From the NCBI GenBank assembly GCA_945898215.1, contig CAMDHY010000034.1:1-38252 (forward strand): 38,252 nt of DNA, written 5' to 3'. A program made the translations under genes and the position numbers. Source of the stretch: Pseudoxanthobacter soli DSM 19599. Lineage in GTDB: Bacteria > Pseudomonadota > Alphaproteobacteria > Rhizobiales > Segnochrobactraceae. This document shows, piece by piece, positions 5,665 through 19,782 of this stretch (within the stretch, counting starts at the first letter, position 1; the number at the start of each line of letters is the position of its first letter). The notes below the pieces were generated by a model. That model did not search any database. It was given only the letters and a program-made list of their open reading frames with translations, and had not been told where the DNA came from.

Positions 5665-7452
5665 TCAGGCCGGGCCGGCGCCGTCCGCCTCGGGCTCGGG
5701 CGCGAACACCTCCTGGAACTGCAGGCGGTAGAACCGCGCATAGAGGCCGCCGGCGGCGATCAATTCGTCGTGGGTGCCGGTCTCGACGACGCGGCCGGCC
5801 TCCATCACGACGATGCGGTCGGCGGCGCGGATGGTCGACAGCCGGTGGGCGATGACGAGCGTGGTGCGCCCTGCCGCGAGCCGGGCGATCGCCTCGCGGA
5901 TGAGGTGCTCGGATTCCGAATCGAGTGCGCTCGTCGCCTCGTCGAGGAGAAGGATCGGCGCGTCCTTGAGGAAGGCGCGGGCGAGCGTGACGCGCTGGCG
6001 CTCGCCGCCCGACAGGCGGGCGCCACGGTCGCCGACGACGGTGTCGTAGCCCTCCGGCATCGCCATGATGAAGCCGTGCGCGGCCGCCTGGCGCGCCGCC
6101 GCCTCGATCTCGGCGTCGCCAGCGTTCGGGCGGCCGAAGCGGATGTTCTGGCGGATGGTGTCGTTGAACAGCACCGCCTCCTGCGCCACCACCGCCACCT
6201 GTCGCCGCAGGCTCGCGAGCGTGGCCTCGCGGACGTCGGTGCCGTCGATCAGCACCCGGCCGGATTCCGGATCGAACAGGCGACCGACGAGGGAGAACAG
6301 CGTCGACTTGCCGGCACCGGAGCGGCCGACGATCGCCGTCACCTTGCCGCCGGGGGCGACGAAGTCGACGCCGTCGAGGGCGCGGGTGCCGTCGGCGAAG
6401 TCGTAGCGGAAGACGACGTTGTCAAAGCGCACCTCGCCGGTGCGGACGAGCAGCGGGCGAGCGCCCGGCCGATCGGCCACTGTCGGCGCCCGGTCGAGCA
6501 CGTCGAAAACGCGGCGCAGCGCCGAGAAGCCCTGCTGCAGCACGGCGTTGAGGCTGCCCAGCGCCCGCAGCGGCTGGGCGGCGATGAGCAGCGCCGAGAC
6601 GAAGCCGGTGAACTCGCCGACGGTGGAGGCGCCCGACGAGATGCGCCAGCCGATGACGAGCAGCACGCCGACGACGGCGAGCCCGCCGAGGAGCTCGAGC
6701 GTCGGCTCGACGCGGCCGCGCTGGTCGGCCGCCTTCACCTTCAGCACCCGCACCCGCTCGAAGGCGGCGGCGGCGCGGCCCTTGAGGTAGCCCTCGAGGC
6801 CGTAGGTCTTGACGATGCGCAAGGCCCCGAAGCTCTCGGAGACGAGCTGCGCCATCACGCCGGTCTGTTCCTGGGTGGTGGTGGAGACGCGGCGGATGCG
6901 CTTGCCGATGCGGCTGATCGGGATGACGGCGAGCGGCAGCACGACGATCGCGAACAGCGACAGGAACCAGTCGAGCCAGACCATCGCGGCGAAGACGGAG
7001 ACGAGCGTCAGCGCGTCGCGGACGAGATTGGTGGTGGCGCGGGTCAGCGCGTCGCGGATGTAGGCGAGGTCGGTGGTGAAGCGCTGCGTCAGCGCCGCCG
7101 GGGTCTCGTCGGCGAGCTGCGCCACGTCGGCGTCGACGAGGTGGTCGTAGAGGGTGATCTGCAGGTCGGTCTCGATGCGGGTGGCGAGACGGTTGGTCAT
7201 CGTCACCTGGACATAGAGGGTCAGCGCCTTGACGACGACGACGCCGAACACCAGCACCGGCAGGAGCGCGATCATCGCGGCATCCTTGGCGCCGAAGGCG
7301 TCGTAGGCCTCGTTGATCAGGATCGGGTAGAGGCCGGTGGTGCCGGCCGAGACCGCGATGACGGCGAGGATCATCAGGATCTGCGGCCAGTGCGGCGCGA
7401 TCCAGCCGCGCCACAGGCGGCGGGAGAGCTCGCTGCTGTCGTCGGAGAGCAT
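5665..7452 (-). CDS. ABC exporter, fused permease and ATPase (MsbA-like)
   Basis: Half-size ABC exporter of 595 residues from the ATG at 7452, which reads MLSDDSSELSRRLWRGW; the frame is open 71 codons further but that extension is Arg/Pro-rich shadow. Six membrane spans occupy roughly residues 20-310. The nucleotide-binding domain has Walker A GRSGAGKST (Lys about 382), signature LSGGE (about 480-484), Walker B ILLLDEATSALD and the H-loop IAHRLST. It should work as a homodimer in the inner membrane. The family includes lipid A and phospholipid flippases and multidrug pumps; the cargo is not determined here. It stands alone, convergent with the phosphatase gene and divergent from the two-component genes. 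Confidence 0.92.
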   Translation of the reverse strand: MLSDDSSELSRRLWRGWIAPHWPQILMILAVIAVSAGTTGLYPILINEAYDAFGAKDAAMIALLPVLVFGVVVVKALTLYVQVTMTNRLATRIETDLQITLYDHLVDADVAQLADETPAALTQRFTTDLAYIRDALTRATTNLVRDALTLVSVFAAMVWLDWFLSLFAIVVLPLAVIPISRIGKRIRRVSTTTQEQTGVMAQLVSESFGALRIVKTYGLEGYLKGRAAAAFERVRVLKVKAADQRGRVEPTLELLGGLAVVGVLLVIGWRISSGASTVGEFTGFVSALLIAAQPLRALGSLNAVLQQGFSALRRVFDVLDRAPTVADRPGARPLLVRTGEVRFDNVVFRYDFADGTRALDGVDFVAPGGKVTAIVGRSGAGKSTLFSLVGRLFDPESGRVLIDGTDVREATLASLRRQVAVVAQEAVLFNDTIRQNIRFGRPNAGDAEIEAAARQAAAHGFIMAMPEGYDTVVGDRGARLSGGERQRVTLARAFLKDAPILLLDEATSALDSESEHLIREAIARLAAGRTTLVIAHRLSTIRAADRIVVMEAGRVVETGTHDELIAAGGLYARFYRLQFQEVFAPEPEADGAGPA

Positions 7453-7703
7453 CGCTCGGCGGTCGCTCCGGGGTGGCGCCCGATGGATGGCGCGGGCGAG
7501 GCGACCCGGCGCGCGCGGGGCGGCTGCACCCGCGAGCGTATGGCCGATAGGGCGGCCCATTGCAAGGCGGCGCCGGTCGCGTCGCACCGCCGTCGGCCGG
7601 CGGCGGTGGCGCGCTTGACGGGCGCGCGAGGCGCAAGCGACAAGCGGTGAGGATTCGCGGGGCACCGGTGGCCGGCCCGCCCCGCCGCCAGCAGGCCTTT
7701 ACC

Positions 7704-8405
7704 GTGCGCATTCTGCTCGCCGAGGACGCCGAGGATCTGGGCGACGCCGTCGCGGCGCGGCTGCGCGCCTCCGGCCACGCCGTCGAATGGCACCGCACAG
7801 GGACCGATGTGGCGGCGCGCGCCCGCGAGGAGCCGTTCGACGCCCTCGTCCTCGACGTCAACCTGCCCGGTCGCGACGGCTTCGCCGTGCTCGCCGAATT
7901 GCGCCGCGCCGGGGTGACGACGCCGGTGCTGGTGGTGACGGCCCGCGCCGAGGTCGACGACAAGGTGAGCCTGCTCGACCTCGGCGCCGACGACTACATC
8001 GTCAAGCCCTTCGACCTCAGGGAGTTCGAGGCGCGGCTCAGGGCGGTGATGCGGCGCCCGACGGCGGTGCGGGCGAGCCTCGTGCGCGTCGGCGCCCTCG
8101 GGGTCGATGCGGCGAGCCGGACGGTCGTCGTCGGCGAGCGGCCGGTGGACTGCGGCCGGCGCGAGTTCCGCGTGCTCGAGGTGCTGGTCGCCCGCCTCGG
8201 CCAGGTGGTGGCGAAGGAGCGGCTGATGTCGCAGGTGTTCGGCGCGGAGGACGATGTCGGCGTCAACGCCCTCGAACTCGTGGTGTCGCGGCTGCGCCGC
8301 AAGCTCGACGGCGCCGGCGTCGAGATCGTCACTGTCCGCGGCAGCGGCTACCTGATGCGCGCCGCGGCGCCGGATGCCGAGGGGCGGCCCGATGCGGCGG
8401 TCTGA
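7704..8405 (+). CDS. tctD: OmpR-family response regulator, TctD type
   Basis: Two-component regulator of 233 residues. The receiver domain begins at once (MRILLAEDAEDLGDA) with the acidic pocket at residues 7-8, phospho-acceptor Asp51 (LVLDVNLPG) and Lys101 (VKPF). A winged-helix DNA-binding domain follows, ending in SRLRRKLDGAGVEIVTVRGSGYLM. I chose the GTG at 7704 because it gives the standard start of the family; the frame extends upstream to 7560 with no family match. The 3' end overlaps the kinase gene by 14 bases. The cluster with a tripartite tricarboxylate transporter suggests it controls tctCBA. The symbol rests on family and context, not on a tested orthologue. Confidence 0.88.
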   Translation: MRILLAEDAEDLGDAVAARLRASGHAVEWHRTGTDVAARAREEPFDALVLDVNLPGRDGFAVLAELRRAGVTTPVLVVTARAEVDDKVSLLDLGADDYIVKPFDLREFEARLRAVMRRPTAVRASLVRVGALGVDAASRTVVVGERPVDCGRREFRVLEVLVARLGQVVAKERLMSQVFGAEDDVGVNALELVVSRLRRKLDGAGVEIVTVRGSGYLMRAAAPDAEGRPDAAV

Positions 8406-10893
8406 GGCCTTCGCCGACACGCCGGTGCGGGCGGTGCTGTCGATCCGACGGCGCGTGCTCGGCCTCGCCTTCCTGGTGCTGGCGATCTCGGCGATGGTGT
8501 TCGCGGTGTTCCTGCGCGACTACGCCAACCGCGCCGCCGACCGCGCCTTCGACCGCCTGCTCGCCGCCTCGGCGCTGTCGATCGCCGGCGCCGTGCAGGT
8601 GGAGGACGGCCGCGTCACGGTGGAACTGCCGCTCGCCTCGCTGGCGATGCTGGGGGCCGGCGGCGACCGCGTCTTCTATCTCGTCGAGGCCCCCGACGGC
8701 GCCTTCGTCACCGGCTACCCCGACCTCGCCGCGGGCCGGCCGCGGGCGGCGCGCGCCGAGCCGAATTTCGAGGACCTGACATACCGCGGCGAGCGGGTCC
8801 GCGTCGCCACGATCGGCCGGCTCTCCTCGGTCGGTGGCGGCGCCGGCTTCGTCTCGATCCGCGTCGCCGAGACCCGGCGGGGGCGGGAGGCGCTGGCGAA
8901 CGAGATCCTGGCGCGCGCCGTGCTGCCGCTGGTGGCGCTCCTGCTGGTGGCGCTGGCGGTGGTGTGGTTCGGCGTGCGCCGGGCGTTTGTGCCCCTCGCC
9001 GGCATCGAGCAGGAATTGCGCGAGCGCGCGCCGGACGACCTGTCGCCGCTGCGCCTGCCGGTGCCGCTCGAGGTGATGGCGCTGGTGGCGGCGCTGAACG
9101 ACTTCATGCGCCGCCTCGATTCGTCGCTGAAGACGCTCTCCGGCCTCGTCGCCGACGCCGCCCACCAGGTGCGCACGCCGCTCGCCGCGCTCCGCGCCCA
9201 GGCCGAGGTGGCGCTCGAGGAGCGCGATCCGGCGAAGGTGCGCGAGCGCCTCGTCCGCATCCACCGCAACGCCACCGCCACCAGCGATCTCGTCAACCAG
9301 CTCCTCATGGAGGCGATCGTGGCGCACCGGCTGGAGACGCGCGAGGTGGCGCCACTGACGCCCGCCGTCATCGTCGACGAGGTGCGCGCCCGCCTCGACG
9401 ACGACGACGAGGGGCGGCTGACGGTGTCGGTGGCGCCGGCGGCGCGCGGCGTCACCATCTGGGGCGACCGGCTGGCGCTGCGCGAGATGCTGCGCAACCT
9501 CGTCGAGAACGCGCTCGCCTATTCCGACGACGACGTCGATATCGACGTGGCGCCCGCCGGGCCCGGCCGAGTGGCGGTGTCGGTGGCCGACCGCGGCGAC
9601 GGCATCGCCGACGACGAGAAGGCGCTGGTGCTGCAGCGCTTCCGCCGCGGCCGCGCCGGCGCCGGCGCCCCCGGCACCGGCCTCGGGCTGGCGGTGGCCA
9701 AAAGCGTCGCCGAGGCGCACGGCGGCACGATCGCCCTCCTCGACCGCCCCGGCGGCGGCCTCGTCGCCCGCGTCGAACTGCCGTGCGAGACCGCGCCGGC
9801 GAGCCGCTCCGCCGCCGCCGTGGTGGCGATGCTGGCCCTCGCCGCGCTTTTGTCGCTCGCCGCCGGCGGCGACGGCCTGGCGCGCGAGAGCGTCTACCCG
9901 GCGCCGGCGCCGCCGGCCGACGGCACCGGGCCCGTGCTCACCGTCGCCGGCGCCACCGACACCGGCCATTTCGCCCACTTCATCCGCGACTTCCAGGCGA
10001 CGCGACCGGACGTGAAGGTCGTCTACGTCGAGATGGACACGATCCGCCTCTATGACGCCGTCGTCGCGGGCACGCTGCCGCCCTCGACCGACCTCGTCGT
10101 CTCGTCCGCCGCCGACCTGCAGGTGAAGCTCGCCAACGACGGCTTCGCCCGGGCCCACGAGAGCGACGCCACGGCGCGGCTGCCGGCGTGGGCGCGCTGG
10201 CGCTCGGAGGTGTTCGGCTTCACCTACGAGCCGGCGGTCATCGTCTACAACACGGCGCTGGTGCCGGAGGCCGAGCGGCCGCGCTCGCATCTCGCCCTGA
10301 CGGAACTGCTCGAGCGCGAGCCGGAGCGCTTTCGCGGCCGCGTCGGCACCTACGACATCGCGCTGTCCGGCGTCGGCCACCTGCTCGCCATGCAGGACGC
10401 GCAGATCTCCTCGAACTTCTGGCGGCTCGCCCGCGCCTTCGGCCGCGTCGATGCGGAGCTCGGCGATTCGAGCCCGCAGATCCTCGATCTCGTCGAGGAG
10501 GGCGAGCTGGCCCTCGGCTACAACGTGCTCGGCTCCTACGCCTTCGCCCGCGTGGTGGAGGGCGGTCGTCTCGGCGTCGTCGTGCCGGAGGACTACACGC
10601 TGGTGCTGACGCGCACGATGCTGATCCCGAAGAGCGCCGACGACATCGCCCTCGGCGGCGCCTTCATCGACTACGCGCTGTCGCCACGCGGCCAGGCGAT
10701 CGCCGCCGGGCCGTCGGCGCTGGGCGCCGTCATCCCCGGCACGCCGGGCGAGTTCACCAGCGAGGGGATCGCGCGGGCCGCCCGCGGCGTCGTCCACCCG
10801 GTGGCCCTCGGCCCGGCCCTGCTGGTGGCGCTCGACCAGCAGCGCAAGGCGCGCGGCCTCGAGACGTGGCGACGGCTCGTCACCGAGCCCTGA
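8392..10893 (+). CDS. TctE-type sensor kinase fused to a periplasmic substrate-binding domain
   Basis: A single open frame of 833 residues with two parts. The first is a histidine kinase: membrane span 22-41, a periplasmic sensor region, span about 176-195, a HAMP-like linker, H-box ADAAHQVRTPL (His258), N-box NLVENALAYS (Asn373), G1 DRGDGI (Asp400) and G2 GTGLGLAVAK (from 428). The kinase should end near 463. A third hydrophobic segment follows at 474-491, then about 340 residues resembling a class II (iron/polyamine-like) substrate-binding protein, with VLTVAGATDTGHF, VYNTALVP and YALSPRGQAIA. GAGGGG seven bases upstream supports ATG 8392. In related clusters the binding protein is, to my knowledge, a separate gene. 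Two fates are possible: one three-span chain, or cleavage after the third segment. An ATG at 9829 could also start the second part separately but lacks a clear ribosome site. Confidence 0.87.
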   Translation: MRRSEAFADTPVRAVLSIRRRVLGLAFLVLAISAMVFAVFLRDYANRAADRAFDRLLAASALSIAGAVQVEDGRVTVELPLASLAMLGAGGDRVFYLVEAPDGAFVTGYPDLAAGRPRAARAEPNFEDLTYRGERVRVATIGRLSSVGGGAGFVSIRVAETRRGREALANEILARAVLPLVALLLVALAVVWFGVRRAFVPLAGIEQELRERAPDDLSPLRLPVPLEVMALVAALNDFMRRLDSSLKTLSGLVADAAHQVRTPLAALRAQAEVALEERDPAKVRERLVRIHRNATATSDLVNQLLMEAIVAHRLETREVAPLTPAVIVDEVRARLDDDDEGRLTVSVAPAARGVTIWGDRLALREMLRNLVENALAYSDDDVDIDVAPAGPGRVAVSVADRGDGIADDEKALVLQRFRRGRAGAGAPGTGLGLAVAKSVAEAHGGTIALLDRPGGGLVARVELPCETAPASRSAAAVVAMLALAALLSLAAGGDGLARESVYPAPAPPADGTGPVLTVAGATDTGHFAHFIRDFQATRPDVKVVYVEMDTIRLYDAVVAGTLPPSTDLVVSSAADLQVKLANDGFARAHESDATARLPAWARWRSEVFGFTYEPAVIVYNTALVPEAERPRSHLALTELLEREPERFRGRVGTYDIALSGVGHLLAMQDAQISSNFWRLARAFGRVDAELGDSSPQILDLVEEGELALGYNVLGSYAFARVVEGGRLGVVVPEDYTLVLTRTMLIPKSADDIALGGAFIDYALSPRGQAIAAGPSALGAVIPGTPGEFTSEGIARAARGVVHPVALGPALLVALDQQRKARGLETWRRLVTEP

Positions 10894-11108: not shown

Positions 11109-12062
11109 ATGCTGAAACCCTTGTTCGCCGCCGCGCTGTGCGCCGGCCTCATCGCCGCGCCGCTGTCGGCCTCCGCCACCGACTACAAGCTGATGGCCCC
11201 GGCGGCCCCCGGCGGCGGCTGGGACCAGACCGCGCGCGCCATGCAGACGGCGCTGCAGGACGAGAAGATCGCCGACAGCGTGCAGGTGAACAACGTTCCC
11301 GGCGCCGGCGGCACCATCGGCCTCGCCCAGTTCGCCACCCAGTCGAAGGGCGATCCGAACGCGCTCATCGTCGGCGGCTACGTCATGGTCGGCGCCATCC
11401 TGACCAACAATGCGCCGGTGACGCTGGAACAGGTGACGCCGATCGCGCGCCTGACCGGCGAGTACGAGGCGATCGTCGTGCCGGCGTCCTCGCCGATCCA
11501 GACGATGCAGGACCTCGTCGCGGCGCTGAAGGCCGATCCCGGCGCGGTGTCGTGGGGCGGCGGCTCGGCCGGCGGTACCGACCACATCACCGCCGGGCTG
11601 ATCGCCAAGGCGGTGGGCGTCGACCCGACCAAGATCAACTACATCGCGTTTTCCGGCGGCGGCGAGGCGCTGGCGGCGATCCTCGGCAGCCAGGTGACGG
11701 CCGGCATCTCCGGCTACGGCGAGTTCGAGAGCCAGGTGCAGGCCGGCACGCTGCGCCTGCTCGCGGTGTCGAGCGGCGAGCGCCTGCCGGGCGTCGACGC
11801 GCCAACGCTGAAGGAGGCCGGCGTCGACGTCGAGATCCAGAACTGGCGCATGGTGGCGGCCGCGCCCGACATCACGCCCGAGCAGGCGGCGGCGATCACC
11901 GCCGACATCGAGACGATGGTCAAATCCGCGACCTGGCAGGAGACGCTGAAGACCAAGGGCTGGCAGAACACCTTCCTCGCCGGTGACGCCTTCAAGGCGC
12001 AGCTCGCCGCCGACACCGCGGCGACCGCGACGATCCTGAAGGACATCGGGCTCGTCAAATGA
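11109..12062 (+). CDS. tctC: Tricarboxylate-binding protein TctC (tripartite transporter)
   Basis: Periplasmic binding component of the tripartite tricarboxylate transporter, 317 residues. A clear signal peptide ([19 protein letters not shown], cleavage after SASA) leads into [20 protein letters not shown], the family hallmark in which the PGGGWD loop contacts the ligand carboxylate. [13 protein letters not shown] and [11 protein letters not shown] are also family-typical. The ATG at 11109 has GGGAGG at good spacing. The frame is open far upstream (from 10188), but that is antisense-like coding noise over the kinase gene. The stop overlaps the tctB start by four bases. The ligand is probably citrate or another di/tricarboxylate; these proteins vary widely in ligand. 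Confidence 0.92.
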
Positions 12063-12604
12063 GCGACCGCCTCGACGCCGGCCGGCGGGGCTCTGAACGT
12101 GGTGCCCCGGCCGTTGTGGATCACGACGGCCGGGGTGCCGGCCAGCACCGACCGGACTGGGCGGTGCTGGTCGTCGCGGCCCTCCTCGCCGGCCTCGCCG
12201 CGGTGATCGTCTGGGATACCCAGCGCCTCGCCGTGGCGGCCGCCTACGCCCGCGTCGGACCGGCCGCCTTCCCCTACACCGTCGCCGCGGGGCTGGTCGG
12301 GCTCGCCGTCTGGACGGCGATCGCCGGCTGGCGCGGCGGCTTCCCCCAGCGGGAACACGTCGAGTTCAGGCCCGTTGCCTGGATCATCGCCGGGCTCGTC
12401 GGCCAGATGGTGCTGCTCCCGTACGCCGGCTTCTCGATCGCCACCGGCGTGCTGTTCGCCTTCACGGCGAAGGGGCTCGGCCGCGGGCCGCTGTGGCTGA
12501 CGGTGCCGGGCGGGGCCGTCTTCGGCTTCCTCGTCTGGCTGACCTTCACGAAGCTCCTGCAGCTGTCGCTGCCGGCGGGGCCGCTCGAGCGCCTGTTCGT
12601 CTGA
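12059..12604 (+). CDS. tctB: Tripartite tricarboxylate transporter small membrane subunit TctB
   Basis: Small membrane subunit, 181 residues, with about four hydrophobic segments: DWAVLVVAALLAGLAAVIVW, a span near 75-95, VAWIIAGLVGQMVLL, and a C-terminal span with the phrase FGFLVWLTFTKLLQLSLPAGP that marks this family. The N-terminal 35 residues are hydrophilic and unusually rich in Gly, Arg and Asp. ATGA overlap with tctC shows tight coupling; tctA begins 34 bases after the stop. It associates with TctA in the inner membrane. An inverted repeat lies within its first 80 bases and is listed separately. Confidence 0.9.
   Translation: MSDRLDAGRRGSERGAPAVVDHDGRGAGQHRPDWAVLVVAALLAGLAAVIVWDTQRLAVAAAYARVGPAAFPYTVAAGLVGLAVWTAIAGWRGGFPQREHVEFRPVAWIIAGLVGQMVLLPYAGFSIATGVLFAFTAKGLGRGPLWLTVPGGAVFGFLVWLTFTKLLQLSLPAGPLERLFV
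12105..12135 (+). repeat. 10-bp inverted repeat inside the start of tctB
   Basis: CCCCGGCCGT (12105-12114) and ACGGCCGGGG (12126-12135) are exact complements around an 11-base loop. It lies within codons for the hydrophilic N-terminus of TctB and could fold as an mRNA hairpin just after the start codon. In DNA this GC-rich it could also be chance. Confidence 0.4.
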
Positions 12605-12637: not shown

Positions 12638-14155
12638 ATGGACACCTTCGCGCTGCTCGGCCAGGGCCTGCTCGTCGCGCTCGAGCCGATGAACCTGCTC
12701 TACGCGCTGATCGGCGTGACGCTCGGCACCGCCGTCGGCGTGCTGCCGGGCATCGGCCCGGCGCTGACCGTCGCGCTCTTGCTGCCCGTCACCTACAAGC
12801 TCGATCCGGCCGGCTCGCTGATCATGTTCGCCGGCATCTACTACGGCGGCATGTATGGCGGCTCGACCACCTCGATCCTGCTCAACACGCCGGGCGAGAG
12901 CGCCTCGATCGTCACGGCGCTCGAGGGCAACAAGATGGCCCGGGCCGGGCGCGGCGGCCCGGCGCTCGCCACCGCCGCCATCGGCTCCTTCGTCGCCGGC
13001 CTGATCGCCACGCTGGGACTGGCGCTGATCGCGCCGTGGGTGGTGAAGTTCGCGCTGGCCTTCGGGCCGGCGGAATATTTCGCGCTGATGGTGCTCGCCT
13101 TCATGACGGTCTCGGCGGCGTTCGGCGATTCGACGCTGCGCGGCCTCACCGCGCTCGCCCTCGGCCTCGCCATCGGCATCGTCGGCATCGACCTGCAGAC
13201 CGGCCAGGCCCGCCTCACCTTCGGCATCCCCGACCTGCTCGACGGCATCGAGGTGACGACGGTCGCCGTCGCGCTGTTCGCCGTCGGCGAGGCACTGTCG
13301 GTGGCAGCCTCGCGCTCGCGAACGCCGGAGACGATCGAGCCGGTGCGCGGCTCGGTATGGATGAGCAAGCTCGACTGGGCGCGCTCGTGGAAGCCGTGGC
13401 TGCGCGGCACGCTGATCGGCTTCCCGATCGGCGCGATGCCGGCCGGCGGCGCCGAGATCGGCACGTTCCTGTCCTATGCCGCCGAGAAGCGGCTGACGAA
13501 GCACCCCGAGGAGTTCGGCCACGGTGCCATCGAGGGCGTCGCCGGGCCGGAGGCCGCCAACAACGCCTCGGCCGCCGGCACGCTGGTGCCGCTGTTGACG
13601 CTCGGCCTGCCGACGACGGCGACGGCGGCGATCATGCTCGCCGGCTTCCAGCAGTTCGGCCTGCAGCCCGGGCCGTTGTTGTTCATCAACAATGCCGACC
13701 TCGTCTGGGGCCTGATCGCGAGCCTGCTCGTCGCCAACCTGATGCTCTTGGTGCTGAACCTGCCGCTGATCGGGCTGTGGGTGAAGCTCCTGTCGATCCC
13801 GCGGCCGTGGCTCTATGGCGGCATCCTGGTGTTCGCCACCCTCGGCACCATCGGCGCCAACCCGTCGGTGGCCGAGCTCGCCATGCTGCTCGCCTTCGGC
13901 ATCCTCGGCTTTCTCCTGCGGCTGTTCGGCTATCCGATCGCCCCGGTGGTGGTCGGGCTGATCCTCGGGCCGCTCGCCGAACAGCAGCTCAGGCGGGCGC
14001 TCGCCATCAGCCAGGGCGATCCGACGGTGCTCGTCACCTCGCCGGTGGCGGCCGTTCTGCTGGCGCTGGCGGTAGCGGCGGTGATCGTGCCGCTGGTGCT
14101 GCGCTGGCGCGGCCGCGGCAAGGTGCTCTCGGCTCTTGCGGCCAACGAGGATTGA
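12638..14155 (+). CDS. tctA: Tripartite tricarboxylate transporter large permease TctA
   Basis: Large membrane subunit, 505 residues, the normal length, with about 11-12 hydrophobic segments. Family hallmarks include [17 protein letters not shown] near residue 40, [20 protein letters not shown], and the internal counterpart [41 protein letters not shown] carries the conserved Asn-Asn pair. The ATG at 12638 follows tctB by 33 bases. Together with TctB and the binding protein TctC it forms a proton- or sodium-driven secondary uptake system in the inner membrane. It is the last gene of the module that begins with the TctD/TctE-like genes. Confidence 0.94.
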
Positions 14156-14439: not shown

Positions 14440-15117
14440 ATGATGGAATTCTTCGCCGAGCACCTGACCCCCGAGGCGCTCACCGCGCTCGGCCAGGTGA
14501 TCATGATCGACATCGTGCTCGCCGGCGACAACGCCATCGTCATCGGGCTGGCCGCCGCCGGCCTGCCGAAGGACCAGCGCGCCAAGGCGATCCTGATCGG
14601 CATCATCGCCGCCACCGTGCTGCGCATCTTCTTTGCCGCCATCACCGCGCAGCTGCTCGCCATCATCGGCCTGCTGCTCGCCGGCGGCATCCTGCTGCTC
14701 TGGGTGTCGTGGAAGATGTGGCGCGAGCTGCGCCTCTCCGCCCTCGAGGCGGCCGAGGGCCAGGAGGCGCTGACCGAGGAGGACCTCACCGGCGACAACA
14801 GGATCGCCGCCGGTGCGCCGCGCAAGACCTTCGCCCAGGCGGCCTGGCAGATCGTCGTCGCCGACGTGTCGATGTCGCTCGACAACGTGCTCGCCGTTGC
14901 CGGTGCGGCGCGCGAGCACCCCTGGGTGCTGGTCACCGGCCTCGTGGTTTCGATCGCGCTGATGGGCCTCGCGGCGACCTTCATCGCCAAGCTGCTGCAC
15001 CGCTACCGCTGGATCGCCTATGTCGGCCTGTTGATCATCCTCTACGTGTCGCTCGAGATGATCTATCGCGGCGCCCTCGAGGTGTGGCCCTACGTTCAGG
15101 CCTACGTGGCGACCTGA
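14440..15117 (+). CDS. TerC family (YjbE-like) integral membrane protein
   Basis: Integral membrane protein of 225 residues with about seven hydrophobic segments. The TerC hallmarks are IDIVLAGDNAIVIGLAAAGLP near residue 25 and the repeat-related VVADVSMSLDNVLAVAGAA near 150, which place acidic residues within membrane helices, presumably for metal binding. Family members export manganese or help metallate secreted proteins, and some confer tellurium resistance; which applies here is not shown. AAGGAGA at 14424-14430 supports the ATG at 14440, though an ATG one codon later is equally usable. It is preceded by a structured leader and followed by a hairpin shared with a convergent gene. Confidence 0.9.
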   Translation: MMEFFAEHLTPEALTALGQVIMIDIVLAGDNAIVIGLAAAGLPKDQRAKAILIGIIAATVLRIFFAAITAQLLAIIGLLLAGGILLLWVSWKMWRELRLSALEAAEGQEALTEEDLTGDNRIAAGAPRKTFAQAAWQIVVADVSMSLDNVLAVAGAAREHPWVLVTGLVVSIALMGLAATFIAKLLHRYRWIAYVGLLIILYVSLEMIYRGALEVWPYVQAYVAT

Positions 15118-17118: not shown

Positions 17119-17652
17119 ATGACTGACGTAATTTCGAGCGAGGCGATCCGCCCTGCCGCTCCGGCGCCGGGCGGCCGCGGCCCCATGCCGGGCGACGAGC
17201 CGCTCTACGAGCTGATCGAGTTGCTGTTCTTCGCCTACCGCGACTTCGTCGGCGGACCGGACCGCATCCTCGCCGAGTACGATTTCGGCCGGGCGCACCA
17301 CCGCGTCCTGCACTTCGTCAACCGCAACCCCGGCATGCGGGTCACCGACCTCCTCGACATCCTCAAGATCACCAAGCAGAGCCTGGCGCGGGTGCTGAAG
17401 CAGCTCGTCGACACCGGCTTCATCGACAGCCGCACCGGCGCCGCCGACCGGCGCGAGCGCCTGCTCTATCCGACGGAGGCCGGCCGGGCGCTGGCGCTTC
17501 GGCTGGCGCGGCTGCAGTCGACGCGGCTCGAGGCCGCCGCCGCGGCCCTCGGTCCGGGCGGGACCGAGGCGGCGAAGCGCTTCCTCGCCCTCGTCGTCAA
17601 CGAGGAGGAGCGTCCCGCCGTGATGGCGCTCGCCCGCAAGGACAATCCATGA
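17119..17652 (+). CDS. MarR family transcriptional regulator (PetP-like)
   Basis: Winged-helix regulator of 177 residues. The DNA-binding core is visible as HHRVLHFVNRNPGMRVTDLL, then LKITKQSLARVLKQLVDTG (recognition helix) and the wing DSRTGAADRRERLLYPTEAG. A disordered Pro/Gly stretch precedes it. The ATG at 17119 has no ribosome-binding site. The frame is open far upstream, but only from here does it match the family. Its stop overlaps the response-regulator start by four bases (ATGA). The MarR plus response-regulator pairing matches petP-petR described in Rhodobacter, here next to ilvE rather than the bc1 genes. It may repress its own and the ilvE promoter; this is inference. Confidence 0.87.
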   Translation: MTDVISSEAIRPAAPAPGGRGPMPGDEPLYELIELLFFAYRDFVGGPDRILAEYDFGRAHHRVLHFVNRNPGMRVTDLLDILKITKQSLARVLKQLVDTGFIDSRTGAADRRERLLYPTEAGRALALRLARLQSTRLEAAAAALGPGGTEAAKRFLALVVNEEERPAVMALARKDNP

Positions 17653-18371
17653 CGCGTTCCGCTACCGCCGCCGCTCCCGCCGCGTCGGCCCTGCCCGACG
17701 ACGCTCCGCACCTGCTCGTCGTCGACGACGACCAGCGCATCCGCACGCTGCTGCGCCGCTATCTCGTCGACAACGGCTACCGGGCGACGATGGCCGAGGA
17801 CGCCGCCGCCGCTCGCCGTTCGATGGGCCAGCTCGAGTTCGACCTCCTCATCCTCGACGTGATGATGCCCGGCGAGAGCGGCATCGACCTCGCCGCCTCG
17901 CTGCGCACCGTCTCGGACGTGCCGATCCTGATGCTGACGGCGCGAGCCGAGGCGGGTGACCGCATCGCCGGCCTGGAGGCGGGCGTCGACGACTACCTGA
18001 CCAAGCCCTTCGAGCCGCGCGAGCTCTTGCTGCGCGTCCAGAGCATCCTGCGCCGCCGCGCGCCGCGCGCGACCGGGCCGGCAGAGGTGCGCTTCGGGCC
18101 GTTCACCTTCCATCTGCAGAAAATGGAACTGATGCGCGGCGACGTCGCCGTCCGCCTCACCGACCGCGAGCGCCGGCTCCTCAAGGCCTTCGCCGAGCAG
18201 CCGGGCGACACCATCGCCCGCCATCTGCTCGTCGAGGGCGAGGGCAGCCTCGGCGAACGGACGGTGGACGTGCAGATCAACCGCCTGCGCCGCAAGCTCG
18301 AGGTCGACCCGGCCAATCCGGTGCACCTGCAGACGGTGCGCGGCATCGGCTACAAGCTGGCGACGAGCTGA
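17649..18371 (+). CDS. OmpR-family response regulator (PetR-like)
   Basis: Two-component regulator of 240 residues. A 25-residue Ala-rich N-terminal extension precedes the receiver domain, which has the acidic pair in LLVVDDDQRI, phospho-acceptor Asp70 (LILDVMMPGESG) and Lys119 (LTKPFEPREL). The C-terminal winged helix ends INRLRRKLEVDPANPVHLQTVRGIGYKL. The ATG overlaps the MarR stop, and the kinase gene follows after 19 bases, so the three form one operon. PetR in Rhodobacter is needed for cytochrome bc1; whether this protein has that target is unknown. Its partner kinase should be the next gene. Confidence 0.9.
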   Translation: MTRSATAAAPAASALPDDAPHLLVVDDDQRIRTLLRRYLVDNGYRATMAEDAAAARRSMGQLEFDLLILDVMMPGESGIDLAASLRTVSDVPILMLTARAEAGDRIAGLEAGVDDYLTKPFEPRELLLRVQSILRRRAPRATGPAEVRFGPFTFHLQKMELMRGDVAVRLTDRERRLLKAFAEQPGDTIARHLLVEGEGSLGERTVDVQINRLRRKLEVDPANPVHLQTVRGIGYKLATS

Positions 18372-18390
18372 GACGGCGGAGGAAGCGCGC

Positions 18391-19782
18391 TTGGCCGAAA
18401 CCGGCACGGGAATGGACTGGGCCCGCGTCGGCGACCGCGCCAAGCGCCTGCTGCTGGTGCCGGCGCTCGGCCGCTTCCTGCACCGGACGCTGCCGAAGCG
18501 GCTGTTCCCGCGCTCGCTGCTGATCATCGTGCTGCCGATGATCCTGCTGCAATCGGTGGCGGCCTACGTCTTCCTCGAGCGGCACTGGGAGCTCGTGACG
18601 CGGCGGCTGTCGGAAGCGACCGTCCGCGACATCACCGCGATCATCAGCGTGCTGCAGTCCTATCCGCAGGACCCCGACTACACGACCCTGAAGCGCATCG
18701 CCCGCGACGACCTCAAGCTCACCATCGAGGTGCTGCCGAAGCAGCCGCTGCCGCCGCCGGCGGAGAAGCCGTTCTTCTCGCTGCTCGACCGGACGCTGTC
18801 GCGGCTGATCTCCGAATCGATCGGCAAGCCGTTCTGGATCGACACCGTCGGCCGCTCCGACTTCGTCGAGATCCGCATCGACCTGCCCGACAACCAGCTG
18901 AAGGTGTTCGCCCGCCGCAGCCAGACCTACGCGGCCAACGCCCACATCTTCCTCGTCTGGATGGTCGGCACCGCCCTCGTCCTGCTCGCCATCGCCATTC
19001 CCTTCCTGCGCAACCAGATCCGCCCGATCCAGATGCTCGCCGCCGCCGCCGAGGACTTCGGCCGCGGCCGCCCGGTGGAGGGCTTCCGGCCGCGCGGCGC
19101 ACTCGAGGTGCGCCAGGCCGCGCAAGCCTTCCTCGAGATGCGCCGCCGCATCGAGCGGCAGATCGAGCAGCGCACGACGATGCTCGCCGGCGTCTCGCAC
19201 GACCTCAGGACGATGCTGACGCGCTTCCGCCTGGAACTCGCCTTCCTCGGCGACGGCGAGGAGGTGGCGGAGCTGAAGAAGGACGTCGACGAGATGCAGG
19301 CCATGCTCGAGGGCTACATCGCCTTCGTGCGCGGCGACGGCGACGAGCAGGCGGCATCGGTGGACCTGTCGGCGATGCTCGCCGAGATCGCCGCCAAGGA
19401 GGCCTCGGAGGGCTGCACGGTGACGGCCAGCTACGAGGGCGAGCCACAGGTGACGGTGAAGCCGAGCGCCTTCCGCCGGGTGATCGTCAACCTCGTCGGC
19501 AACGCCCGCCGGCACGCGGCGACCGTGGCGGTGGCAGGCTGCCACGCCGACGGCTGGATCACCGTCACCGTCGACGACGACGGCCCCGGCGTGCCACCCG
19601 AGATGCGCGAGGAGGTGTTCAAGCCCTTCGTCCGCCTCGACGAGGCGCGCAACCAGGACGAGGCCGGCACCGGGCTCGGCCTCGCCATCGCCCGCGACAT
19701 CGTCCGCGGCCACGGCGGCGACATCGGCCTCGAGGAGTCCCCCCTCGGCGGCCTGCGCGCCCGGGTGCGCATCCCCGGGTGA
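18391..19782 (+). CDS. EnvZ-like sensor histidine kinase
   Basis: Membrane sensor kinase of 463 residues. Two membrane spans (about 50-68 and 187-208) flank a short periplasmic region. A HAMP domain follows (RNQIRPIQMLAAAAEDFGRG), then H-box SHDLRTMLTRFRLEL with His270, N-box NLVGNARRHA, G1 DDDGPGVP and G2 GTGLGLAIARDIV. The conserved proline after HDLRT is a methionine (275), which may alter phosphatase activity; a non-proline residue here is, I believe, usual for the close alphaproteobacterial relatives. The TTG start at 18391 has GGAGGAA eight bases before it; the ATG at 18412 is the alternative. It is the third gene of the MarR-regulator-kinase operon. Confidence 0.9.
   Translation: MAETGTGMDWARVGDRAKRLLLVPALGRFLHRTLPKRLFPRSLLIIVLPMILLQSVAAYVFLERHWELVTRRLSEATVRDITAIISVLQSYPQDPDYTTLKRIARDDLKLTIEVLPKQPLPPPAEKPFFSLLDRTLSRLISESIGKPFWIDTVGRSDFVEIRIDLPDNQLKVFARRSQTYAANAHIFLVWMVGTALVLLAIAIPFLRNQIRPIQMLAAAAEDFGRGRPVEGFRPRGALEVRQAAQAFLEMRRRIERQIEQRTTMLAGVSHDLRTMLTRFRLELAFLGDGEEVAELKKDVDEMQAMLEGYIAFVRGDGDEQAASVDLSAMLAEIAAKEASEGCTVTASYEGEPQVTVKPSAFRRVIVNLVGNARRHAATVAVAGCHADGWITVTVDDDGPGVPPEMREEVFKPFVRLDEARNQDEAGTGLGLAIARDIVRGHGGDIGLEESPLGGLRARVRIPG

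Follow-up and report, generated by a model that had tools for sequence, protein, structure and literature searches.

The window analysed here is a 38,252-nucleotide stretch of Pseudoxanthobacter soli DSM 19599 (contig CAMDHY010000034.1, positions 1 to 38,252), in which a TctE-type histidine kinase and a periplasmic binding protein are encoded in one reading frame, beside a tripartite transporter. What does such a gene make: a single tethered sensor, two proteins, or is it an error that joins two genes? We observed that this single frame with its domains is real, that fused and split forms both exist in several lineages and that the junction between the two halves carries features of a signal peptide. 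On balance, the product is probably a two-part precursor, cut into a kinase and a dedicated periplasmic sensor subunit for a citrate-like or metal-citrate-like ligand, which would control the transporter operon tctCBA.

A kinase and a binding protein in one frame

Translation of the open reading frame at 8392-10893 on the forward strand gives 833 codons without an internal stop; a second in-frame ATG lies at 8374. Judged by its domain content, the N-terminal half is a TctE-type kinase, with 2CSK_N, HisKA and HATPase_c domains scoring over their Pfam cut-offs (PF08521, 124.7 bits against 23.2; PF00512, 40.9 against 26.9; PF02518, 73.8 against 26.4) and the motifs AHQVRTP at 257 (H258), NLVENAL at 369 (N373), DRGDGIA at 400 and GTGLGLA at 428. 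After residue 466, where the ATPase domain ends, 367 more in-frame residues follow. They contain an unbroken hydrophobic run of 21 residues (473-493) and then matches to SBP_bac_11, SBP_bac_8, SBP_bac_6 and SBP_bac_1, which span 516-786 (E 6.6e-11 to 7.8e-10), each over its Pfam cut-off. An earlier note on this DNA had described the frame, the complete kinase core with H258 and N373, and a third hydrophobic segment with a binding protein behind it, and all of this is borne out.

By phmmer against the Protein Data Bank (PDB), residues 484-828 of the fused protein aligned with 3c9h (9.3e-63) and residues 516-830 with the 7f6 series (1.5e-39 to 6.4e-38), and the kinase part matched many kinases. 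The binding domain alone matched 3c9h across residues 4-331 of its 336 (8.1e-62) and the MctA chains at 2.6e-40 to 1.1e-38. Foldseek also ranked 3c9h at the top (TM-score on target 0.92, 35% identity), followed by the MctA entries (0.86-0.91), 7f6e and related ones, which are titled metal-citrate-binding protein. From these matches and the predicted structure, residues 498-833 are a full binding protein of the MctA/3c9h type across the whole mature domain. The AlphaFold2 model of the fused protein, made with 86 aligned sequences, has a mean predicted local distance difference test score (pLDDT) of 90.6 and a predicted TM-score (pTM) of 0.68. Its binding fold opens with a strand at 498 and pLDDT is 93-98 per ten-residue block from residue 501, with 83 over the final three residues; residues 466-495 are below 50 and form no helix. 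We found no second copy of the binding protein in the source genome, a draft of 224 contigs, at a match cut-off of E 0.001.

The earlier note held that kinases of this type normally end soon after the G2 box, with binding proteins encoded separately, and proposed a search for the same order in other genomes. Most relatives are indeed two adjacent genes, but 29 other distinct loci (21 genome loci and 8 annotated plasmid loci) encode the kinase and then the binding protein as a single frame. Their identity is about 35-65%, and they include Labrys genomes, one of them a complete chromosome, and RefSeq genes of Peteryoungia and Azospirillum. The note's idea of a possible new sensor layout therefore needs to be qualified, since the order was already present in RefSeq; a description of this layout was not found in the open-licence literature searched.

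The closest relatives found are fused, contrary to the case of all close relatives being split that the note had raised against itself. In the own family, the fused gene is present in two of three genomes, the source genome counted, and the third has merely a 37% kinase match (1e-40). At the level of the order, a full-length single-frame match without a stop was observed in 20 of 397 genomes, again counting the source, a lower bound at a cut-off of 1e-60 with two candidates scored per genome; in G244 and G158 a TGA separates the kinase and binding halves. With a cut-off of 1e-50, 3 of 385 genomes of the class are fused, source included, and in the phylum only the source genome itself (1/398); in one phylum genome (G936) the match crosses the kinase end into the binding half, at a locus scored as split (L133). 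Named genomes contributed 35 loci, of which 29 have the two halves as separate, intact genes (including Phyllobacterium, Mesorhizobium, Marinobacter, Halomonadaceae and Pseudoalteromonas) and three are fused, all from Labrys, these rows being the same as three genomes of the order search. The remaining ones are a broken gene (L071), a binding half only (L062) and a short match only (L072). At the broken locus, from Brucella oryzae, the kinase match at 6001-7351 extends across three frames, which points either to a disrupted gene or to indels in the assembly. Two Mesorhizobium loci (L065, L066) have two tandem MctA-like genes after the kinase, at 7395-8375 and about 8758-9704.

Out of 72,556 plasmid records, 145 match at 1e-40. 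Nine were examined: eight are fused (Peteryoungia desertarenae, six Azospirillum and Palleronia) and one is split (Bradyrhizobium sp. 155). All eight fused plasmid genes are annotated as a single coding sequence named only 'extracellular solute-binding protein', a record name under which a complete sensor kinase can hide.

In eight close pairs tried, which share rows and of which the window protein is not a member, the ratio of nonsynonymous to synonymous substitution rates (dN/dS) at the junction is 0.15-0.59, below 1 in every pair; the kinase core has 0.07-0.22 and the binding half 0.03-0.23. The junction is therefore translated and under constraint, though its flanks are constrained more strongly, and a chance read-through in GC-rich DNA is ruled out by this in-frame constraint. 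GC content by codon position is a weak test here: the third-position value is 0.68-0.96 in the junctions, second-position GC rises too, and position one exceeds position three in some junction rows.

Both halves are present at 107 loci (25 fused rows, 74 same-strand pairs and 8 divergent pairs). Nine partial rows (L013, L016, L071, L103, L105, L106, L124, L135, L138), which include all eight divergent pairs, and five duplicates (L073, L074, L075, L125, L127) were left out, and the kinase tree was made from the remaining 93, 22 fused and 71 split. It requires five changes between fused and split forms, at least three of them forced by starred branches; the binding-protein tree requires five as well, and the number stays at five when the eight plasmid rows and one split row are added. 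Because several branches are long, placements are uncertain. A single fused clade is ruled out on the kinase tree by the approximately unbiased (AU) test (p 7.3e-93, on a quick tree with long branches). The biggest all-fused group is a core of 18, made up of the window, G002, Labrys, 12 members of family f6 and Peteryoungia; six Azospirillum with G381 form a group of seven, G253, G720 and Palleronia a group of three, and G380 and G641 are each fused alone. In these searches the split form is the one met more widely, and the simplest account is therefore that neighbouring genes were joined repeatedly, which would make joining the usual direction; the trees themselves give no direction and some of the changes could be splits.

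The junction between the two halves

Export of the C-terminal half by the third hydrophobic segment is expected from its place after the cytoplasmic kinase domain. The question is whether the segment is then cut. In 17 core-clade junction rows (the clade without Peteryoungia, and with L009 aligned after hand removal of one residue), a single column is invariant ahead of the YPA motif: an Ala five residues before the Tyr of that motif, at the -1 position of a presumed cut site (17/17). The -3 residue is small in 16 of 17 rows (A 9, V 4, G 1, S 1, T 1), and Pro in L079. In the window protein the equivalent site is A497|R498, exactly where the predicted binding fold begins, and x-x-A before the binding domain is kept in the five other fused genome loci (by eye) and in the eight plasmid loci.

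The hydrophobicity scan, like that for ribosome sites below, covered the 22 fused and 71 split rows, with the eight plasmid loci not included. The median of the best 19-residue hydrophobicity is 1.86 for the fused junctions, close to the 1.77 of the signal peptides of split binding proteins, and 2.48 and 3.09 for the kinase spans TM2 and TM1 (22 each). TM1 serves as the comparison, since it crosses the membrane in the same direction as the junction segment and stays there. After the hydrophobic core, [AVST]xA occurs in 27 of 30 fused junctions, against 22.8 (standard deviation, sd, 1.9) in shuffled sequences, and in 63 of 71 split signal peptides, against 52.0 (sd 3.3); after the TM1 core it occurs in 60 of 93, below the shuffled 69.5 (sd 3.1). 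These shuffles preserve composition, not relatedness.

Because of the invariant Ala, the hydrophobicity near that of split signal peptides and the motif excess, the junction segment resembles, from sequence comparison, a cleavable signal peptide more closely than a membrane anchor, and cleavage seems quite likely for the family. We favour it somewhat less for the window protein, whose segment is long and fairly hydrophobic and ends in G-L-A followed by Arg.

The split binding proteins have ordinary-looking signal peptides, apart from L089 and L091, which look lipoprotein-like by eye (LAGC and LAAC). In these two, the kinase frame is the same and one TGA lies between the genes; such a signal is perhaps an alternative means of holding the partner at the membrane.

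Ligand, neighbouring genes and proposed mechanism

The titles of MctA entries name mutated positions S26, D28, S79, S164, T199 and Y221, which we take to contact the ligand. They map to A521, D523, S572, S659, S694 and Y716 of the fused protein if an offset of two is applied; five letters then match, and Ala stands in the S26A entry. D, S, S and Y are unchanged, T199 is Ser and S26 is Ala, so that five of six are kept or conservative. We then counted these positions in a structure alignment of the 22 fused proteins with 32 kinase halves and 32 binding halves hand-picked from the 71 split rows (alignment A1). D523 is kept in 20/22 fused and 30/32 split proteins, S572 in 21/22 and 27/32, S659 in 19/22 and 26/32, and Y716 in 21/22 and 30/32; S or T is present at 694 in 22/22 and 27/32, and position 521 is variable in the fused set (A 4, V 9, T 7, S 2). 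After the G381 fused gene, on the opposite strand, lie genes of CitG, CitX, CitF, CitE-type lyase, citrate lyase ligase and 2HCT transporter type. With the MctA positions mostly kept and these citrate lyase neighbours, citrate or metal-citrate is a reasoned guess for the ligand.

In the same alignment, Cys occupies each of the adjacent positions 692 and 693 in 23/32 split proteins versus 3/22 fused ones. They adjoin the T199 equivalent and perhaps point to a redox- or metal-sensitive pocket.

The features of the locus are listed in Table 1. The transporter genes downstream, on the same strand, are those on which the earlier note had remarked. The last 14 bases of the regulator gene are also the first of the fused gene; the regulator's best NCBIfam match is TctD (NF012023), with 185.4 bits, under the curated cut-off of 337.

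Table 1. Coordinates of the fused gene, its domains and the neighbouring tct genes in the window.
Feature	Coordinates	Strand	Basis
TctD-like response regulator (receiver + winged helix)	7704..8405	+	PF00072, PF00486
Fused gene (kinase, internal signal segment, solute-binding protein)	8392..10893	+	833 aa, same order in other genomes
2CSK_N periplasmic sensor domain	8485..8907	+	residues 32-172, PF08521, E 3.6e-36
HisKA dimerisation/phospho-acceptor domain	9139..9309	+	residues 250-306, PF00512; H258 = 9163-9165
HATPase_c catalytic domain, N373 + G boxes	9463..9789	+	residues 358-466, PF02518, E 2e-20
Signal-peptide-like segment, predicted signal peptidase I cut after A497	9802..9882	+	residues 471-497, junction alignments
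Solute-binding protein domain, MctA/3c9h-like	9883..10890	+	residues 498-833, phmmer + Foldseek
TctC, transporter's own binding protein	11109..12062	+	PF03401, E 2.5e-29
TctB	12059..12604	+	PF07331, E 1.8e-17
TctA permease	12638..14155	+	PF01970, E 9.7e-152

Near the fused gene, tctC, tctB and tctA matches on either strand were observed in 9 of 14 fused loci examined, and tctC and tctA matches in three (G253, G641, G720). In Azospirillum brasilense Sp7, AMK58_27655 and AMK58_27660 (TctC) lie a few places from the fused gene AMK58_RS27690. Their abundance ratios on fructose versus malate are 8.151 and 37.907 in a section of PMC11837500 which makes no mention of the fused gene; products of the Sp7 cluster therefore respond to the carbon source. 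After tctA, a gene for a membrane protein of the TerC family is present in the window (14440-15117) and in two Azospirillum clusters (L178, 3458-4129; L179, 606-1286), both of which also carry a fused gene. Elsewhere in the window, a parA-like gene (a match without the N-terminal part) and parB are adjacent at the start (137-1635), and at 17649-19782 another response regulator stands in tandem with the ATPase domain of a kinase.

We propose the following sequence of events. The TctE-type kinase would insert with two spans, and the hydrophobic segment after its ATPase domain would act as an internal signal peptide exporting the C-terminal binding protein. Signal peptidase I would then cut after A497 and set one binding protein free in the periplasm for every kinase made. 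The freed protein may bind citrate, either alone or complexed with a metal, or a closely related compound and, once loaded, dock on the periplasmic 2CSK_N domain; the kinase would phosphorylate the adjacent TctD-like regulator, which would turn tctCBA on. In Bordetella, citrate-loaded BctC is described as contacting the BctE sensor domain, the binding protein driving the kinase, in the part of that paper concerned (PMC9602780).

Several observations weigh against this proposal. Three of 30 junctions are without the strict motif, and in sequence so rich in Ala the motif exceeds the shuffles only modestly. The window junction is among the weaker cases. It has Gly at -3 and Arg at +1, and its strict match can only be the earlier S-L-A, not G-L-A. 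None of the other 21 junctions has so long a hydrophobic run, and the hydrophobicity of 2.33 lies within the range of TM2. Even after a cut, what is left of the signal could remain in the membrane as a third kinase span. The G380 and G381 fused genes have no tctCBA match within the 17 and 13 kb examined, and that of G380 adjoins ABC transporters. Cytochrome c1 frames are only 283-428 aa long in three fused-kinase genomes and the source genome (283 aa), and joined precursors are therefore no general habit of these genomes. Binding proteins and the kinases that they activate often have neighbouring genes, though in Pseudomonas aeruginosa three binding proteins encoded near two kinases showed no role in activating them (PMC11113362). 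The long run and the weakened A497 site, together with the one frame joined throughout the core clade of 18, would suit a tethered single-chain sensor, as the earlier note supposed, in which the third segment anchors the chain and the joined binding domain acts on the sensor domain of the same chain or of the other chain in the dimer. We find such a tether doubtful, somewhat less so for the window protein, although the export on which the note relied is expected. The -1 Ala is invariant and the cut-site motif exceeds the shuffles, and 17 of 22 junctions are less hydrophobic than every TM1 value (five are above the lowest TM1 value and four above the lowest TM2 value); moreover, the roughly ten residues between the ATPase domain and the segment would presumably pin that domain at the membrane. 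In an unlikely variant of the single-chain sensor, with the receptor behind the ATPase domain on a third span, ligand capture would move or free the ATPase domain directly, and partial cutting by signal peptidase would give the two-part form and tune signalling.

That two genes were joined by an error of sequencing or assembly, through an overlooked stop or frameshift, can practically be dismissed. Beyond the draft state of the genome nothing speaks for it, and an error near 9780-9830, which the earlier note had feared, would have to recur in other genomes; the single frame is present in many independent ones, including the complete Labrys chromosome and RefSeq-annotated plasmid records, a recurrence which already refutes the artefact for the family. 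The binding protein could also be made from an internal start codon, the continuous frame being incidental. The binding-protein frame of split relatives does begin around the kinase stop codon, the window junction has in-frame starts, one of them ATG, and a 5-base ribosome-site match is present in 2 of 22 fused junctions. Matches of at least four bases, however, occur in 8/22 fused junctions versus 61/71 split ones and 40/154 within-kinase control windows, L039 is without an in-frame start in the stretch scanned, and the junction is under the in-frame constraint described above, which makes this a very improbable origin. Finally, the released protein might be mainly an importer receptor and serve transport instead of sensing, since the entries of its nearest relatives of known structure carry titles of ABC-transporter binding proteins. 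We regard this as quite improbable: the identified neighbours are tctD and tctCBA, in which TctC already serves TctBA, one-for-one synthesis with the kinase would presumably yield few copies, and the binding-protein gene adjoins a TctD-like regulator and a kinase in the 23 loci looked at, fused or split.

If the precursor proposal is true, a kinase gene can encode a cut precursor. Pairing binding proteins with kinases is hard because their genes are separate, and a joined frame names the partner outright; the MctA-like proteins beside other TctE-type kinases also become testable as sensory subunits.

Comparison with known systems

FbcH of Bradyrhizobium is cut by signal peptidase at an internal signal. 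Like the fused gene, it joins a membrane protein, a signal-peptide-like segment and an exported domain in one frame, but it belongs to a respiratory complex and the fused gene to a sensor. One source, in the part concerned, calls fbcH a cytochrome b/c1 subunit (PMC12456017), and no paper on its cleavage was present among the matches listed in our literature search. Single cytochrome c1 frames of 701-758 aa with an A-x-A type junction were observed in 4 f36 genomes (L170-L173) of 7 searched. A parallel within the source genome itself is ruled out, its cytochrome c1 being the separate gene noted above.

The TctDE/BctDE systems with TctCBA/BctCBA share with the locus a TctE-type kinase with 2CSK_N, a TctD-like regulator and an adjacent tripartite transporter; here, unlike there, the presumed sensory binding protein is of the MctA/3c9h type, not TctC, and in one frame with the kinase. 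MctA and the Agrobacterium tumefaciens protein 3c9h resemble residues 498-833 in sequence (about 33-35% identity) and fold, but they are separate proteins titled ABC-transporter binding proteins, whereas here this protein is the C-terminal half of a kinase gene.

In kinases of the BvgS/EvgS type a periplasmic binding fold is built in, N-terminal of the kinase. Binding fold and kinase are thus in one polypeptide, as here, but in the fused gene the binding domain comes after the ATPase domain, behind an export signal. In HptA-HptS, LuxP-LuxQ, TorT-TorS and XylFII-LytS, a soluble binding protein presents its ligand to the sensor domain of the kinase and, unlike in the fused frame, the two are encoded by separate genes. 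Kinase-activating binding proteins are already known, about ten characterised cases being counted in the relevant part of a 2022 paper (PMC9602780); what sets the fused gene apart is the encoding, with the presumed sensory partner joined behind the kinase via an export signal.

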